Positions 32,283-55,609 of a DNA stretch of 64,000 nt are shown piece by piece; the first letter of the stretch is position 1; the number at the start of each line of letters is the position of its first letter. The stretch is from Saccharopolyspora gregorii (lineage in GTDB: Bacteria > Actinomycetota > Actinomycetes > Mycobacteriales > Pseudonocardiaceae): NCBI RefSeq assembly GCF_024734405.1, contig NZ_CP059556.1, positions 1,736,001-1,800,000 on the forward strand. The letters run 5' to 3'. Below the pieces are notes generated by a model, which did no database searches, had not been told where the DNA came from, and saw only the letters and a program-made list of their open reading frames with translations. A program made the translations under genes and the position numbers.

Positions 32283-32401
32283 CGGTTATCCGCTCACCGG
32301 AAGCCCAAACCCGTCACCGGCATCGTGTCCGAACGGTCACGGAGCGTCGGGAGTGGCAGGTAGGCTCCGGCTTCGAGACGATCACCGGTCCGGGGGTGGC
32401 G

Positions 32402-34510
32402 ATGAGCGAACCAGTCTGGTCGAACAACAGCAACAGCGCTCCGGTGCACGGCAACGTCGTGCAGGCCGGCCGGGTCGAGCGGCTCATCGTGCAGTCGCGC
32501 GACGGCGCCGAGCTCCCGGTGCCGCGGACGTTGCCGCGCGACCCGCGCCACCACGGGTTCCGGAACAGGGTGGTGGAGCCGGCCGAACTGGACCGGTTGC
32601 GGGGACTCGCGAACGACGAGCAGCGCCCGCTGACGGTCGTGCTCCCCGGGATGCCCGGTGTCGGCAAGACGATGACGGCGCTGCGCTGGGCGCACCAGGT
32701 GCAGGACGAGTTCTCGGACGGGGTGCTGGTGGCCGATTTGGGCGGCGCCTCGCCGACCGGACCGGCGAGCCCGTTCGACGTGCTCGGGGCCTTCCTGCGC
32801 GATCTCGGCGTCACCGAGGTCGGCGCGCTCACCACGGAGCGCGAACGCGCCAACCTGTTCCACACGCTCACCGCGCACCGGGAACTGCTGCTCGTGCTCG
32901 ACGATGCCGCGACCTCGCGCCAGGTCGAAGCCCTGCTGCCGCCCTCGCCGCGGAGCTGCGTGGTGGTCACCACCCGGTACGCGCTGGACCTGCTGGGCCA
33001 GCAGGGCGTCGAGCACGTTCCCGTGGAGCCCTTCCACCTGGACGACGCCCTGGCCCTGATGTCGGAGGCGGTCGCGAATCCGGAGACCCCGCTGGATCCG
33101 GCCGCGCTGCGCAAGCTGGCCGAGGCGTGCGGTCGGCTACCGCTGGCGCTGCGCGTCGCGGGTGCTCGGTTGCGCGGGCGGTCGTCGATCGAGTCCTTCG
33201 TGGACCGGGTCGTCGAGGGCTCCGGACTGCTGACCCACCTGCACTTCGATGGCGAGCGGCTCGTGCACGGCGTGTCCGAAGTCTGCTACCAGGAGCTGCC
33301 GCCCGCCGAGGCCCGCGCGTACCGGTTCCTGGGACTGCACCCCGGCCCGGAGTTCAGCGTCGCGGCGGTGGCCGCGCTGCTCGGCACCTCGGAGTTCGAC
33401 GCGGAAGAGATGTTGGCGGAACTGCGCCGGGTCGGTCTCCTCGGCGTGAGCGGTGACCGGTACCGGATCCACCCGCTGCTGCAGCGGCACGCGGAGGACG
33501 CCGGGCGCGATGCGGACACCGTCGCCGACCGGGCGGCGGCGCTGACGAGGCTCGTCGAGCACTACCACTCGTTCGCGATGGCCCGGGACGTCGTGCTGAG
33601 CTCCCGTCGCCGCCTCAGCACGCGGTACGACTCCGTGTCCGCCGCGCACACCGGGCCGGAGGCGCGGCGGAAGGCGCTGGACGGCCTGGACACCGAGCGG
33701 CTCAACCTGCTCGCCGCAGTGCGGGTCGCCGAATCCCTCGGCCTCCACGACCGGGTCTGGCAGCTCTGCGAGAGCCTGTTCACCTACCAGTTCGACCGAG
33801 ACCTGTTCGGTGACCTGCTCGACGCGCACCTGGCGGGCATCCGCGCCGCCGAAGCCCTCGGCGATGCCGCGGTGCTGGCTCGAATGGTCTCGCAGTACGG
33901 TTCCGGCTTGTTCGCCGCGCACGACGACGCCGAAGCCCGCGTCCAGTTCGAACGGGCCCGCCGCATCGCCGTCGAGTGCGGGGACGCGCTCGCGGAGCAG
34001 AGCGCCACCGAGTGGACCGGGTTCGTGCACGAGCGCGCGGGCGCCCCCGAGTCGGCGCTGGAGTGCTCCGAGCGTTCCCGGGCCATCATCCGCTCCCGGT
34101 TCGCCCCGGAGCACCGGCCGCGTCCGCTCGCGTTGTACGGGCTGAACGCCGGTCGGGTCCTGGTCTCGGTGGGGCGGTACGACGAGGCGCGCCCCGAGCT
34201 GCTGGCCGCCGCGGAGTTCTTCCGGACGAACGGTGAACGCGGCAACCTGGCGAAGGTCGAACTGCCGCTGGCCGAGCTGGAACTGCGCACCGGCGGCGCC
34301 GATGCGTTGCCGCGCTTGGAACGGGTGCTGGCCGTCTTCGCGGAACTCCGCATGCGGTCCTGGCAGGTAACGGCGCTGGAACTGCTCGCCGAAGCCCTGG
34401 ACGGGGCGGGGAACGCCGAGAAGGCACTGCTCCGGCGGCAGGAAGCGACGGATCTCGCGCTGGTGCTGGGACGGCAGCGGGCCGCCGCGGGGTCGGATCA
34501 GGACAGCTGA
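32402..34510 (+). CDS. NB-ARC/TPR signalling protein with PP-like N-terminal motif
   Basis: A 702-residue STAND protein. The P-loop GMPGVGKT is at 83-90, the Walker B-type LLLVLDDA near residue 162, and the GLPL-like LPLALRVAGARL near 247, followed by a winged-helix segment and TPR-like repeats to the end (LFAAHDDAEARVQFERARRI, for example). The N-terminus, residues 17-30 GNVVQAGRVERLIV, shows the N-V-V-Q-x-G-x-V pattern also present in the NB-ARC protein at 18669-20750, although the second Gly of the motif is missing here. No DNA-binding domain is present. The ATG at 32402 has GGGGG 5 nt upstream. The stop overlaps the convergent GT-B gene by 13 bp. Confidence 0.83.
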   Translation: MSEPVWSNNSNSAPVHGNVVQAGRVERLIVQSRDGAELPVPRTLPRDPRHHGFRNRVVEPAELDRLRGLANDEQRPLTVVLPGMPGVGKTMTALRWAHQVQDEFSDGVLVADLGGASPTGPASPFDVLGAFLRDLGVTEVGALTTERERANLFHTLTAHRELLLVLDDAATSRQVEALLPPSPRSCVVVTTRYALDLLGQQGVEHVPVEPFHLDDALALMSEAVANPETPLDPAALRKLAEACGRLPLALRVAGARLRGRSSIESFVDRVVEGSGLLTHLHFDGERLVHGVSEVCYQELPPAEARAYRFLGLHPGPEFSVAAVAALLGTSEFDAEEMLAELRRVGLLGVSGDRYRIHPLLQRHAEDAGRDADTVADRAAALTRLVEHYHSFAMARDVVLSSRRRLSTRYDSVSAAHTGPEARRKALDGLDTERLNLLAAVRVAESLGLHDRVWQLCESLFTYQFDRDLFGDLLDAHLAGIRAAEALGDAAVLARMVSQYGSGLFAAHDDAEARVQFERARRIAVECGDALAEQSATEWTGFVHERAGAPESALECSERSRAIIRSRFAPEHRPRPLALYGLNAGRVLVSVGRYDEARPELLAAAEFFRTNGERGNLAKVELPLAELELRTGGADALPRLERVLAVFAELRMRSWQVTALELLAEALDGAGNAEKALLRRQEATDLALVLGRQRAAAGSDQDS

Positions 34511-36360
34511 ACGCGGACCCCGTTCACCGAGGTCTCCGGCCCGAGCTCGTCGATGCTCCTGCCTGCGGCGAGCCAGCCGTGCACCGCGGCGGCGAAGCAC
34601 ATCGGCCGGCCCGCGCCCGGGACCCGCGGGCTGATCCGCGCCGTGCGGCCCGAGCGGGTCCGCACCAGGCACGCGTCGCCCTGCACCGCTGCGGCCAGCA
34701 GCGATCCGGGACGTGCGTCGAGCGCGTCCCGGAGCCAGTCGTGCACGTGCTCGCCCCAGTCGCCCGTGGTGAGCACCAGCACGTCGGCGGCTTCGCGCAA
34801 GCTCCGCCCGGGATGTTCGGCCGCGACCACCAACGCCCCGTCGGCGGTGCTGCGTGGCAGATCCACGGGATGCCGGACCACCCGCAGACCGCCGCCGGGT
34901 TCGACCTCGGTGCGGGCGCGGCTCGCGGTCGGCAGGCAGGCCGCGGGTGCGGGGAGACCGCTGAGGTCGTCCGGCGGCACCGGTGGTTCCTCCTCGGGCT
35001 CGGGCAGCTCCAGCAGCTCGTAGCAGACCCGCCGCACCGCTCCGGCCGCCTCACCCGGGCGCGAGGTGAGCCGTCCGCTCAGGTCGGTGAACGAGGCGGC
35101 GGCCCGTTCGGCCGCAGCCAGCCGAGGGCCGATCGGCTCGTGCTCGGCCAGCCGCGGAGCGCGGGAACCGACGACGTCCACCAGCGAGCCCGGCGCGACC
35201 TCGCGGGCCGGGAATGAACCGAGCAGGGTGGGGATGCCGAGAACGGCGCCGTACGTGGTGACGGAACCGTGATCACCGATCAGGTAATCGGAGGCGATCA
35301 GCGTCGCGCGCCAACCGAATTCCGGTGGGACCAGCACGAGTCCCGCCCTCACGTGCCGTGCGAGCAAGCGGTGCACTTCGCTGCGGCCGTGCCCGTACCA
35401 GATGTTCGGGTGCAGGATGGCGGCGAACCGGTGTTCGTCGGCGGGGAATTCGTCCAACACCCGGGAGAAGACGTCGGGAACTCTTCCCAGCAGCGATTCC
35501 GACCACCACGTCGAACTGATCGTGATGAGCGTCCGATCATCGGCGCCCAGTGCCCGCCGGTAGGCGGGGCGCCAGGGGAGGCTGGTCAGCAGTCGGTCGT
35601 AGCAGGCGTCACCGGCTACGACCGCGGTGCCGAGCGCTTCCGGGACCGCTGCCGCGAGTTGTGCGCGCTGGTCCTCGTGCGACATGACCAGTGCGGAGGC
35701 GATGGGGCGGCCTTCGTAGAGCACCCATTGCGGATCCAGCCCGAAAGCGACGCGCCGGTTCTCCGGTTCTCCGGTTCTCCGGTTCTCCGGTTCTCCGGTT
35801 CTCCGGTTCTCCGGTTCTCCGGTTCTCCGGTTCTCCGGTTCTCCGGTTCTCCGGTTCTCCGGTTCTCCGGTTCTCCGGTTCTCCGGTTCTCCGGTTCTCC
35901 GGTTCTCCGGTTCTCCGGTTCTCCGGTTCTCCGGTTCTCCGGTTCTCCGGTTCTCCGGTTCTCCGGTTCTCCGGTTCTCCGGTTCTCCGGTTCTCCGGGA
36001 AAGCACTTTAGTGTAGCGAATCCCGTGCGGAATCGAGACGATGGGTGCGTCGATCTCGACGAGGCCGCCGAGGTTCGCCGCGAGGGCGAGGTCGAACCGG
36101 GTCAGCAGCGCTTGTTCCCAGCTGATGAGCGGGATGCCGCGTTCGGCGAGCATGCGGTGCAGCCCGTCGGGGAACGGGTCGGAACCGTTCCACGTGTAGC
36201 TGAGCTGCACCCGGAAATCGCCTTCGAACACCGGCAGCACGTCCAGCAGCCGGGTCATCGCGGTGACGTTGTGCACGACGACGAGCACGTTCTTGCGCGG
36301 TGTCACGGTGCGCCACCGCGCCGCGTGCCTGCCGATGGTGCGGGACAGCCCGTCGCTCAC
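34498..36360 (-). CDS. GT-B-fold transferase-like protein containing an 8-bp repeat array
   Basis: A 620-residue protein resembling CDP-glycerol-type or UDP-sugar GT-B transferases. The N-lobe begins NVLVVVHNVTAMTRLLDVLP. Between IPHGIRYTKVLS (about 120) and VAFGLDPQWVLYEG (about 203) lie about 81 residues of the octapeptide RTGEPENR, encoded by a perfect 8-bp DNA repeat. After it, ISSTWWSESLLGRVPDVFSR and ASDYLIGDHGSVTTYGAVLG recall the nucleotide-binding half of TagF-like enzymes. The last 150 residues are unassigned. GTG at 36360 has GGAGG 5 nt upstream and overlaps the GT4 stop (GTGA). A gain or loss of one repeat unit shifts the frame, and both alternative frames stop about 50 codons later. 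Likely a cell-surface glycan enzyme; phase-variable expression is inferred. Confidence 0.7.
   Translation of the reverse strand: MSDGLSRTIGRHAARWRTVTPRKNVLVVVHNVTAMTRLLDVLPVFEGDFRVQLSYTWNGSDPFPDGLHRMLAERGIPLISWEQALLTRFDLALAANLGGLVEIDAPIVSIPHGIRYTKVLSRRTGEPENRRTGEPENRRTGEPENRRTGEPENRRTGEPENRRTGEPENRRTGEPENRRTGEPENRRTGEPENRRTGEPENRRVAFGLDPQWVLYEGRPIASALVMSHEDQRAQLAAAVPEALGTAVVAGDACYDRLLTSLPWRPAYRRALGADDRTLITISSTWWSESLLGRVPDVFSRVLDEFPADEHRFAAILHPNIWYGHGRSEVHRLLARHVRAGLVLVPPEFGWRATLIASDYLIGDHGSVTTYGAVLGIPTLLGSFPAREVAPGSLVDVVGSRAPRLAEHEPIGPRLAAAERAAASFTDLSGRLTSRPGEAAGAVRRVCYELLELPEPEEEPPVPPDDLSGLPAPAACLPTASRARTEVEPGGGLRVVRHPVDLPRSTADGALVVAAEHPGRSLREAADVLVLTTGDWGEHVHDWLRDALDARPGSLLAAAVQGDACLVRTRSGRTARISPRVPGAGRPMCFAAAVHGWLAAGRSIDELGPETSVNGVRVQLS
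35755..35998. repeat. 8-bp simple sequence repeat, 30.5 perfect units
   Basis: CCGGTTCT on the plus strand (AGAACCGG on the coding strand) is repeated without error over 244 bp inside the GT-B-like gene. Three units equal 24 bp or eight codons, so all three frames of the repeat are open and copy-number changes not divisible by three alter the downstream frame. Read on the plus strand it would give a spurious FSGSPVLR repeat. Confidence 0.97.
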
Positions 36361-37634
36361 CCCGTCCTCCGTTCCTCTGCCCCGACACCGTAACCGTTGG
36401 CGCGCAGGAACCGGATCACCGCGAGCCGGTGGTCGAAGTGGACGGTCGCGGCCATCGCGGCGCGGCGCATCCGGGCGCGGGCGGCGGGAGTCAGTTCGAG
36501 CGCCCGGGTGAGCGCGGCGGCGAGCGAGGCGGGATCGGCCGGTTCGGCGCTGAACCCGGTGTGCCCATCGGTGATCTGCTCGGCCAGCCCGCCGGCTCGG
36601 GTAGCGACGACGGGAGCCGCGCCCGCGGCGTGCGCTTCCAGCGGGATGCGGCCGAAGGGTTCGCTGCGCGAGGGCACGATCACCCCGCGCAGCTCCGGGC
36701 GGGTGAGCAGCGAGCGGATCCGCGGGTCGAAGTCGCCCAGGAAGACCGCGGGTACGCCGGTGGCGCGCAGCTCGGCCACCAGCCGCTGCTGGAAGCGGGT
36801 CCGGCCGGGGCCCTCGCTCACCGCGGCGAGCACCAGCGCGGGCGGGCGGCGTCGCCGCACCAGGGCGAGCGCGGCGATCAGGTCCTGGAACCCCTTGTAC
36901 GGTTCGGCCCTGCCGAACGACAGCAGGAAGCCGTTCCGCAGGTTCGGACTTCCCAGCACGACGGGGTCCGCTCCGGGCGGGAGGAGTTCGGCGGCGGGGC
37001 TGGGCCGGTCGGCGTCGGTGAGCCCGTCGGGCAACGCCACCAGCGCGGCGGGCGGAACGCGGTAGTCGGTGCGCAGGTGCTCGGCCATGAACCGGGAGAT
37101 CCAGCCGATCCGGGCGCCTCGCCGGACGGCGCTGAGCAGGCAGTGGCGTTCCCAGCGCGTCCGGGCGAGGTCCTGCGGCTGGTGCAGCATTCCGGTGGAC
37201 CGCGGCACCAGCACCAGCTGCACCTGCTCCGGCGCGGTCTCGGCGAGGCCGAAGAACGGCACGTCGAACGCGATGCACAGGCAGCTCTCCCCGCGGCGCC
37301 CCACCTGGTCGCGGAGCACCTGACCGGCGGCCGCGGCCAGCGCCCGGAAGTTCGCCACCCCGCCGAAGCGGTCGGTGCCGGAGGTGCCGTTGTCGAGCGG
37401 ATGCACCTCGGCGCGGGCGAGGACACCGGCCAGGTCCTGGGGTTCGTGCTCCCGGTGCTCCGGGCTGTCCGGTGCGAGCCGGACGGGGAGCAGCAGCAGT
37501 CGCACGTCCGCGGGCAGCACTTCGGCCAGCACGCGCAGGAACGCGCGGTTGGCGGCACCGGCTCCCGTCCCGTGCCCGTAGTAGCCGTCGTGGATCAGGA
37601 CGGCCACGGTGGAAGCCGGTGCACTGGTGATCAT
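36357..37634 (-). CDS. Glycosyltransferase family 4 (GT-B)
   Basis: A 425-residue retaining glycosyltransferase. The N-terminal domain starts VAVLIHDGYYGHGTGAGAAN. LSFGRAEPYKGFQDLIAAL near residue 240 and VPSRSEPFGRIPLEAHAAGA near 325 form the GT4 donor site, with the EPFGRIPLE (EX7E) motif. GGLAEQITDGHTGF completes the C-lobe. It would transfer a sugar from a nucleotide donor in the cytosol; the acceptor is unknown. It starts 12 bp after the P-type ATPase stop and overlaps the repeat-bearing GT-B gene (GTGA), so the three may be one transcript and the two transferases probably act on the same glycan. Confidence 0.9.
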   Translation of the reverse strand: MITSAPASTVAVLIHDGYYGHGTGAGAANRAFLRVLAEVLPADVRLLLLPVRLAPDSPEHREHEPQDLAGVLARAEVHPLDNGTSGTDRFGGVANFRALAAAAGQVLRDQVGRRGESCLCIAFDVPFFGLAETAPEQVQLVLVPRSTGMLHQPQDLARTRWERHCLLSAVRRGARIGWISRFMAEHLRTDYRVPPAALVALPDGLTDADRPSPAAELLPPGADPVVLGSPNLRNGFLLSFGRAEPYKGFQDLIAALALVRRRRPPALVLAAVSEGPGRTRFQQRLVAELRATGVPAVFLGDFDPRIRSLLTRPELRGVIVPSRSEPFGRIPLEAHAAGAAPVVATRAGGLAEQITDGHTGFSAEPADPASLAAALTRALELTPAARARMRRAAMAATVHFDHRLAVIRFLRANGYGVGAEERRTG

Positions 37635-53516: not shown

Positions 53517-55088
53517 TCATTCCCGCTGCAGCATCACGTCCTCCAGGTCCAGTTCGTGCAGCACCCGGCGCAGGACCACGTCGTCGATGCGGCCCTCGTC
53601 GCGGAACCGGACGAACACCTCGCGCTCCGCGGCGAGCATCTCGGCGCGCAACCGGCGGTACGCGGCGCCGGGGCTCTCCCCGACCTCCTCGGCGGAACGG
53701 CCCAGCCGTTCCCACGCCCGGTTGCTGCGCCGCTCCGCGGACCGCCGCAGGTGCTCGGCGACCTCGTCCGGCGGCGGATCGTCCGCCGAGAGCTCGTCCA
53801 GCCGCCGCCGCGCCGCCAACGCCGCGTTGTGCGCCGCCTCCGCCTCGGCCAGCGCATCGGTGTAGCGCTCCCCGCCGCGAACGCCGAGCGCGCGGATCAC
53901 CCACGGCAACGTCAGCCCGTGCAGCAGCAGCGTCCCCAACGTCACGAAGAACGCCAGGAACAGCACCTGCGGCCGCTGCGGGAACGGCGCCCCGGTCGAG
54001 GTGAACTGCGGGATCGCCGCCGCGGCGGCCAACGACACCACGCCGCGCATCCCCGCCCAGGACACCACCGCGCCGTACCGCCACGGCGGCGCCGGACCGC
54101 GGCGCAGCAGCAGCTCCGGCAGCTGCAAGGTCGCGAACACCCACGCCGCCCGCACCAGCACCACCGTCGCCGTCAGCGCGGTCCCCACCAGCACCAGCGG
54201 CACCAGCTGCCCGGCCACGCCCTCGGTGACCGAGCGCAGCTGCAAACCGATCAGCGCGAACACCAGCGCCTCCAGCAGGGTGTCCGCGGACAGCCACACC
54301 GCCCGGTCCTGCAACCGCACCGAGGCGCTGCCCGTCGGCGAGCGCTGCCCCAGGTACAGCCCGGCGACGACCACGGCCAGCACCCCGGACGCGTTGATGC
54401 CCTCCGCCAGCAGGTACGCCGCGAACGGCACCAGCAGGCCCAGCGCGCTCTCCAGCACCCCGTCGGCCAGCGCCCGCCGCGCCCGGTGCACCGCCCAGCC
54501 CACCAGCCACCCGACGGCGAGCCCGCCGATCGTCGCCAGCAGGAACACGCCCACCCCGGCGAGCAGCGTGTACCCGGTGCCGAGCACGGTGGCCACCGCG
54601 ACCCGGTACGCGGTGAGCGCGGTGGCGTCGTTGACCAGGCTCTCGCCGCTGAGCACCGTCATCACCCGGCGCGGCAGTCCCAGCCTGCGGCCGATGGAGG
54701 TGGCCGCCACCGCGTCCGGCGGGGCCACCACGGCGCCCAGCACCAACGCCGCGCCCAGCGGCATCGCGGGCACCAGCCACCACGCCACCAGTCCGATCGC
54801 CAGCGTGGTGACCAGCACCGCGCCCAGCGCCAGCGAGCCGATCGGGCGGGCGTTCGCGCGCAGGCCGATCGTCGACGAGGTCAGCGCCGCCGAGTACAGC
54901 AGCGGCGGCAGCACCAGCACCAGGATCAGCTCGGGGTCGATCGCGTAGTCCGGCACGCCCGGCACGAACGAGAGCGCGAGCCCGGCCAGCACCAGCACCA
55001 GCGGCTCGGAGAGCTCCCACCGCCGGGCGAGCGCGGTGATCACCAGCGCGACCGCGAGCAGCACCATCAGGTCCGGGAACTGGTGCAT
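53517..55088 (-). CDS. Na+/H+ antiporter (CPA1 family)
   Basis: A 523-residue monovalent cation/proton antiporter. About 12 membrane segments occupy residues 1-400: VLVLPPLLYSAALTSSTIGL is TM3-like, and AVVAPPDAVAATSIGRRLG followed by VLSGESLVNDATALTAYRVA carries the PPDAVA and NDA ion-site motifs. A cytosolic helical tail (about 400-523) rich in Glu and Arg follows and could regulate activity. It exchanges Na+ or K+ for H+ to hold cytoplasmic pH. The ATG at 55088 begins MHQFPDLMVLLAVALV. It is convergent with IclR; a GACGCC/GGCGTC hairpin at 53499-53518 may end both transcripts. Confidence 0.93.
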   Translation of the reverse strand: MHQFPDLMVLLAVALVITALARRWELSEPLVLVLAGLALSFVPGVPDYAIDPELILVLVLPPLLYSAALTSSTIGLRANARPIGSLALGAVLVTTLAIGLVAWWLVPAMPLGAALVLGAVVAPPDAVAATSIGRRLGLPRRVMTVLSGESLVNDATALTAYRVAVATVLGTGYTLLAGVGVFLLATIGGLAVGWLVGWAVHRARRALADGVLESALGLLVPFAAYLLAEGINASGVLAVVVAGLYLGQRSPTGSASVRLQDRAVWLSADTLLEALVFALIGLQLRSVTEGVAGQLVPLVLVGTALTATVVLVRAAWVFATLQLPELLLRRGPAPPWRYGAVVSWAGMRGVVSLAAAAAIPQFTSTGAPFPQRPQVLFLAFFVTLGTLLLHGLTLPWVIRALGVRGGERYTDALAEAEAAHNAALAARRRLDELSADDPPPDEVAEHLRRSAERRSNRAWERLGRSAEEVGESPGAAYRRLRAEMLAAEREVFVRFRDEGRIDDVVLRRVLHELDLEDVMLQRE

Positions 55089-55173: not shown

Positions 55174-55292
55174 GCGCCGGCGGGTCAGGAGCGCCGGCGG
55201 GTCAGGAGCGTCGGCGGGTCCGGAGCGCTGGCGGGTCCGGAGCGCTGGCGGGTCCGGGGCGCTGGCGGGTCCGGGGCGCTGGCGGGTCCGGG
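55174..55292. repeat. 17-bp minisatellite, seven units
   Basis: Seven contiguous 17-bp units (consensus GCGCTGGCGGGTCCGGG) with a gradient of variants: the first two carry GCGCC and TCAGGA, the last three are identical. It lies in the 254-bp gap between the antiporter and UBP zinc-finger gene starts. A 17-bp unit cannot keep a reading frame, so it is non-coding. Confidence 0.9.
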
Positions 55293-55342
55293 GCGCGGCC
55301 GGGCATGGTGGGGCCATCGGACGCGGAACCCGGGAGGCGGCG

Positions 55343-55609
55343 ATGGCCGGTTGCGAGCACCTGGAAGCGGCGGCGGACCGGCGGCCCGAGCCCGGTTCCC
55401 GCTCCGGCTGCGAGGACTGCGCGCGGCTGGGGCTGCACGAATGGGCGCACCTGCGGATGTGCACCGAGTGCGGGCACGTCGGCTGCTGCGACTCCAGCCC
55501 GCGGCAGCACGCCACCGAGCACCACCGCGGCACCGGTCACCCGGTGATCCGCTCCTTCGAGCCGGGCGAGGCCTGGGCGTGGTGCTACGTGGACGAACGC
55601 CTCGGCTGA
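55343..55609 (+). CDS. UBP-type zinc finger protein
   Basis: An 88-residue protein that is almost entirely a ZnF-UBP (ubiquitin-hydrolase-type) zinc finger. Metal ligands are readable in CEHLEAA, CEDC, LRMCTECGHVGCCDSS and HATEHHRGTGHPV. In eukaryotes the domain binds ubiquitin C-termini; stand-alone copies are frequent in actinobacteria, where the partner is unknown. The ATG at 55343 has GGGAGG 5 nt upstream. Its end overlaps the convergent membrane protein by 25 bp. The neighbouring CPA1 antiporter is a common companion of such fingers, so a regulatory link is possible. Confidence 0.88.
   Translation: MAGCEHLEAAADRRPEPGSRSGCEDCARLGLHEWAHLRMCTECGHVGCCDSSPRQHATEHHRGTGHPVIRSFEPGEAWAWCYVDERLG

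Follow-up and report, generated by a model that had tools for sequence, protein, structure and literature searches.

Does a long, perfect tandem repeat inside an open reading frame act as a switch on the gene that carries it, or is it a passive filling of a loop in the protein? The question is raised by the window, a stretch of 64,000 nucleotides (G000:C1:1736001-1800000) from a soil-type actinomycete, in which TRF finds 30.5 copies of the octamer CCGGTTCT at positions 35755-35998, with a 100% match and no indels. This array is the top-scoring repeat of the window (TRF score 488, against 183 for the next), and the tripled unit has no other match in the 6.34-Mb single-contig genome. The original prediction had placed an error-free octamer array of 30.5 units within a GT-B-like gene, at codons about 122-202, and had proposed that unit number sets the reading frame. 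The array is exactly as described and lies at codons about 121-202 of a frame of 620 amino acids, within the following features.

34498..36360, minus strand: GT-B glycosyltransferase-like gene (GTG start at 36360, stop at 34498, 620 amino acids), open end to end and in frame (ON) as assembled
35999..36360, minus strand: N-half of the gene, upstream of the array, from translation
36007..36030, minus strand: PHGIRYTK motif (residues 111-118), immediately ahead of the array and containing the invariant His-Gly (alignment of 60 homologues)
35755..35998, minus strand: perfect 8-bp array of 30.5 units, CCGGTTCT on the plus strand and CCGGAGAA on the coding strand
34501..35751, minus strand: C-half of the gene, downstream of the array and missing from out-of-frame (OFF) readings, from translation
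36357..37634, minus strand: GT4-type glycosyltransferase gene (Pfam Glycos_transf_1, E 7e-22), its 3' end overlapping the first 4 bases of the switch gene

The window strain provides one genome in one state, in frame, and both other minus-strand frames of the gene run into stops. Alleles shorter or longer by one unit have computed products of 247 and 250 amino acids, and those shorter or longer by two units products of 242 and 255 amino acids. These OFF frames end about 45-48 codons past the array, at TGA and TAG, in agreement with the two stop codons predicted at about 50 codons. It had also been remarked that the array can be read through in all three frames, which is correct as a description; since the period is not divisible by three, however, every frame reads an identical set of codons, and the observation, being automatic, was dropped as separate evidence for a switch. 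The features of a contingency locus that are found here are a perfect repeat within a reading frame, a unit that is not a multiple of three, and truncation of the product at neighbouring unit numbers.

These features suggest a model in which 8-bp units are gained or lost, most likely through slipped-strand mispairing, and in which a change in length not divisible by three would shift the frame downstream of the array. In frame, the cell would make the full-length GT-B glycosyltransferase with a disordered repeat peptide in the loop past the His-Gly; out of frame, translation would end at the stops just described, and the C-half, and presumably activity, would be lost. The change would probably be reversible within a colony. 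Judging by the class of the enzyme, a cell-surface glycan or phage receptor could thereby vary between cells, perhaps against phages. Units as long as these would escape classical mismatch repair, and actinobacteria are for the most part not known to carry MutSL.

Homologues were collected to determine the state of this site in other genomes. The search of family f1 (probably Pseudonocardiaceae) gave matches in 182 of 297 genomes at E 0.001, shorter paralogues included, and 110 of the places listed were taken, ranked by the whole protein, an order that favours ON genes (42 ON, 8 OFF). Class-wide, matches at 1e-30 came from 40 of 394 genomes, and 50 loci were taken from 77 listed rows, some of which were two halves of one gene. 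Plasmids contributed 7 loci, and in genus g71 (probably Streptomyces), with matches at 1e-60 in 77 of 295 genomes, 70 of the 79 places listed were included. Of the resulting 237 loci, 229 were scored, after removal of duplicates (L124, L126, L224) and unpaired loci (L149, L150, L208, L230, L246). A site array was defined in this table as at least three exact copies spanning at least 18 bp.

Among the best 30 f1 loci, 25 have a repeat in the identical position, flanked by the HG and (V/A)(F/Y)GLS motifs, with differing units and periods. Across the whole table, a perfect array is present at this site, just past the invariant His-Gly, in 132 of the 229 scored loci, so that the conserved location suggested as a check on the original prediction was indeed found; the arrays occur in families f1, f19, f20 and f21. 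Their periods are 7 bp (n=111), 8 bp (n=14), 10 bp (n=5), 5 bp (n=1) and 6 bp (n=1), and 131 of the 132 thus avoid multiples of three, the sole exception being a weak array of 3.0 copies at L232. Copy number ranges from 3.0 to 33.7 (median 7.5), and 49 distinct units remain after rotation. When perfect arrays of at least three copies and at least 15 bp were counted in the first 110 loci, 50 were found in 10,252 bp of site sequence, compared with 7 in 505,640 bp elsewhere, 5 of them located at the 5' end of these genes. In L054, a paralogue from the window's own genome, an 8-bp unit is repeated 3.5 times at the mid-gene site.

The frame relation of the two halves was then scored across each array. 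In 90 of the 132 site arrays the halves are in frame and in 42 they are out of frame, counts that include L183 (an N in the site, OFF call unsure) and L068 (an interrupted gene, scored ON), and in which sister loci are not independent. None of the 42 OFF genes has a stop in either half, and the 97 array-free loci include no out-of-frame case (Fisher p 4e-12). Because a full-length query favours in-frame genes, the C-half alone was used as a query: the best 30 loci of this f1 search, which were kept outside the 229-locus table, contain 27 arrays, 17 ON and 10 OFF, the window gene included. A phase-blind search of genus g71 yielded 56 arrays, 35 ON and 21 OFF, and the class-wide set, obtained with the whole-model search, 11 ON and 10 OFF. 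The OFF state is common among homologues. The proportion of ON alleles lies above the one third expected for random lengths, suggesting that the ON state is useful at least at times. The interrupted gene L068 (G112:C1:741527-746009), whose site has 4.1 copies of an 8-bp array, has a C-half split by about 900 nt, likely by an inserted element.

Natural pairs of near-identical alleles with frame-changing unit numbers were found among the homologues. Two Streptomyces anthocyanicus plasmids (L175 and L176), from strains of the Netherlands and Denmark and with records labelled complete, are identical over 341/341 and 1341/1341 flanking bases (1682/1682) and differ only in the number of GCCGGGA units: 17.6 in the OFF plasmid and 9.6 in the ON plasmid. 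Their annotation tracks phase, with a 1770-base gene in the ON plasmid and a gene for the C-half alone in the OFF plasmid. Within the window's genus, L010 and L011 align over 4266 bp at 99.2% with a sole gap of one CGGAGAC unit, one locus being OFF and the other ON. Further pairs that share a unit and differ by whole units with a change of phase are L213/L214, L207/L222, L238/L242 (10-bp unit) and L128/L147 (two units). Other sister differences are not whole units: a single base in L132/L151, and mixed changes in L177/L179 and L249/L250. Unit counts among relatives flip the frame as predicted; among these homologues unit number is neither constant nor always changed by multiples of three, and the site is not a fixed linker in non-repetitive codons.

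Selection on the C-half, which OFF alleles do not read in frame, was estimated from pairwise dN/dS. Where one or both members of a pair were OFF, the value was 0.13-0.24 in 11 of 12 cases, the exception being L010/L011 (0.37, resting on 8 changes), and 6 pairs without an OFF member gave 0.13-0.22, so the OFF pairs are slightly higher on average. OFF copies are under purifying selection and not dead. A FastTree tree was built from 94 proteins, of which 78 have arrays, and no phase signal was detected on it: 28 changes are required, compared with a mean of 24.8 for shuffled states, and 289 of 300 shuffles needed as few or fewer. Unit identity, in contrast, requires 38 changes against 55.4 when shuffled, with 0 of 300 shuffles as low. 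Phase turns over faster than the gene diverges; the unit turns over more slowly, yet often.

Could the site instead be a loop so tolerant that tandem repeats of any kind may expand in it, as a neutral or structural linker with no role in switching? Loop length varies in array-free loci as well (gaps of 15-60 nt), which, together with the predicted disorder of the array region, implies that insertions should be tolerated, and the C-halves of L090 and L100 are 99.0% alike although only one of the two genes has an array, both being in frame. A linker would nevertheless favour periods divisible by three, the opposite of what is seen in all site arrays but one, and no linker works out of frame, where so many of the alleles are found; in the homologues this explanation is largely refuted, and we consider it very improbable. 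Nor do we give much credence to the proposal that OFF alleles are pseudogenes in decay, or products of misassembly at a fragile repeat. Repeats do break assemblies, as at L042, which ends within its array, and at L183 with its N; against this, both halves of the OFF genes are free of stops, their dN/dS resembles that of ON genes, and loci lacking an array are never out of frame. Most OFF arrays are, moreover, short enough for single reads, 33 of 42 being at most 100 bp and 21 of 42 at most 60 bp, and some come from single-contig genomes (e.g., G079, G786, G862, G771).

A remaining alternative, which we judge unlikely though deserving of more weight than either of these, is that the array has a tuning and not a switching role: activity might depend on the length of the loop, ribosomal or transcriptional slippage might yield full-length enzyme from OFF alleles, or the C-half might be made alone. 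The wide range of copy number and the separate C-half gene annotated on the OFF plasmid are consistent with such a role, whereas pure length tuning needs no period that avoids multiples of three. The observed anatomy and frames of the array, the conservation of its site, the natural ON and OFF alleles of homologues and the constraint on OFF alleles instead make it very probable that the window array is a simple-sequence contingency switch in which unit number sets the frame, since relatives carry, at the same site, both working and non-working lengths of units that are almost never multiples of three. The central claim of the original prediction is thus borne out by homologues with same-site arrays, stop-free alleles in and out of frame, and near-identical alleles differing by whole units.

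The window protein is modelled confidently with a GT-B fold in which the array is the disordered part, and the array is predicted to encode a hydrophilic, disordered loop past the His-Gly. The coding strand of the units is poor in T: A exceeds T in 43 of 48 units with periods not divisible by three, T exceeds A in 3, and the two are equal in 2 (p 5e-10), the opposite of the flanking coding sequence (T 0.155, A 0.129). Codons without T give neither stops nor strongly hydrophobic residues, so the bias fits selection for a readable array and a soluble loop. Beyond base composition, no signal of hydrophobicity was found in the array peptides, a fraction of 0.50 of shuffled units being more hydrophobic. 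The enzyme family is without an NCBIfam name, and five of the plasmids have it annotated as 'hypothetical protein'. The TagF/TarL teichoic acid polymerases (Glyphos_transf, PF04464) are among the closest known systems, and similarity to them is seen in fold and in profile. At the level of Pfam, the window protein has no match to PF04464 up to E 1, no protein in the window's genome passes the cut-off, and 2 of 60 homologues match at E 0.01 or better (best 9.5e-4). A sequence search for solved structural relatives gave a single match, at E 0.71. Compared with the non-hydrolysing UDP-GlcNAc 2-epimerases, the protein did not match an epimerase family model. No phage-encoded homologues were found in the phage collection.

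The neighbouring GT4 gene had been taken as coupled to the switch. In the window the two genes overlap; a single-sequence search of the fetched flanks, which could miss distant relatives, found a relative of this neighbour at 5 of the 229 loci, the window's included, indicating that the switch is independent of it, and GT4 coupling was rejected as a defining feature. The GT4 protein has a second Pfam match over its cut-off, to GT4-conflict (PF20706, E 5e-8). Convergent to the switch gene, a gene at 32396-34510 encodes an NB-ARC/TPR protein.

Some homologues (n=11) have no mid-gene array; their perfect array, of 7- or 8-bp units, is located at the 5' end:

5'-end array class: L052, L098, L102, L148, L154, L155, L158, L163, L170, L172, L173

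In 9 of these 11 the first unit is preceded, at 11-19 nt, by the start of a TANNNT hexamer (expectation 0.03 per 30 positions), placing the start of the array at about the start of transcription, and in L052, L154 and L158 in-frame start codons are found downstream of the array only. One member, L158 (G000:C1:3776902-3781915), is a paralogue in the window's genome, at whose 5' end an 8-bp unit is repeated 21.5 and 9.9 times, and L056 has an array of this type at a contig edge.

Coding-repeat phase variation is usually described in small-genome, host-adapted pathogens, with Neisseria pglE (heptamer repeat) and Haemophilus losA (octamer repeat) as examples of phase-variable glycosyltransferases; here it occurs in actinomycetes that have large genomes and belong to several families. 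For Haemophilus influenzae, passages of PMC2651432 describe contingency loci with coding repeats of 5, 7 and 8 nt. As in the H. influenzae and Neisseria loci, several of which are glycan genes, the repeat lies within the reading frame, has a unit not divisible by three and sets the frame by unit number. In contrast to them, the present system belongs to another enzyme family, another phylum and free-living hosts, and one site keeps the switch while its unit is replaced. The statement that such loci are hardly described in actinomycetes is fair, although not absolute. Pgl of Streptomyces coelicolor, according to a passage of PMC6625227, switches by poly-G length, likewise a repeat-length switch in a streptomycete; unlike the glycosyltransferase with its 5-10 bp units, it is a poly-G tract in a phage defence system. 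In Mycobacterium tuberculosis, also an actinobacterium with tandem repeats, the copy number of promoter repeats varies within isogenic populations according to the abstract of PMC12817950, but those repeats change promoter strength and not frame; the 5'-end arrays may be closer to this type. Passages of the review PMC11868660 treat repeat variation in M. tuberculosis glpK and homopolymers, and a term search of it returned no mention of Streptomyces; the passages of PMC3711429 contain no actinomycete glycosyltransferase cluster. In the open-licence PMC literature we found no report of this GT-B family as phase-variable. The principle is known; what is new is the enzyme family, the hosts, and the fixed site with a replaceable unit.

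We lean, with reservation, towards a wider reading in which actinomycetes of at least four families share an old contingency system: a fixed GT-B site would have been kept as a frame switch while its unit was repeatedly replaced (49 units, with periods of 5, 7, 8 and 10), a related branch would have moved the array to the transcription start, and a surface glycan would differ from cell to cell, most likely as a defence against phages, comparable to the variation with which host-adapted pathogens meet immunity. Should the glycan prove to be a phage receptor or a polymer of the wall, the switch would bear on how susceptible antibiotic producers are to phages and on variation among their colonies. 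With its site fixed and its unit replaceable, the system lets the birth and renewal of contingency repeats be studied, and any assembled genome reveals the state, making the dynamics traceable in existing collections.

The octamer itself has a wider distribution. A scan of the genome collection found at least 8 exact CCGGTTCT units in 5 other records, of which only L042 (JAFAPC010000118.1, 6397-6502) is this GT-B gene, and a special role for the octamer was rejected. The L042 contig, from a Pseudonocardiales MAG, ends within the array in the homologous gene; assemblies can break at such switches and hide them. The other four (L039, L040, L041, L043), outside the GT-B family, are Streptomyces, Planctomycetota, Verrucomicrobiales and Burkholderia records. 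Elsewhere in the window, 7.2 copies of a 17-bp repeat (95% matching) at 55174-55296 lie between an ORF at 53517-55088 on the minus strand and one possibly starting near 55344 on the plus strand, and may be a variable-number repeat between divergent genes.
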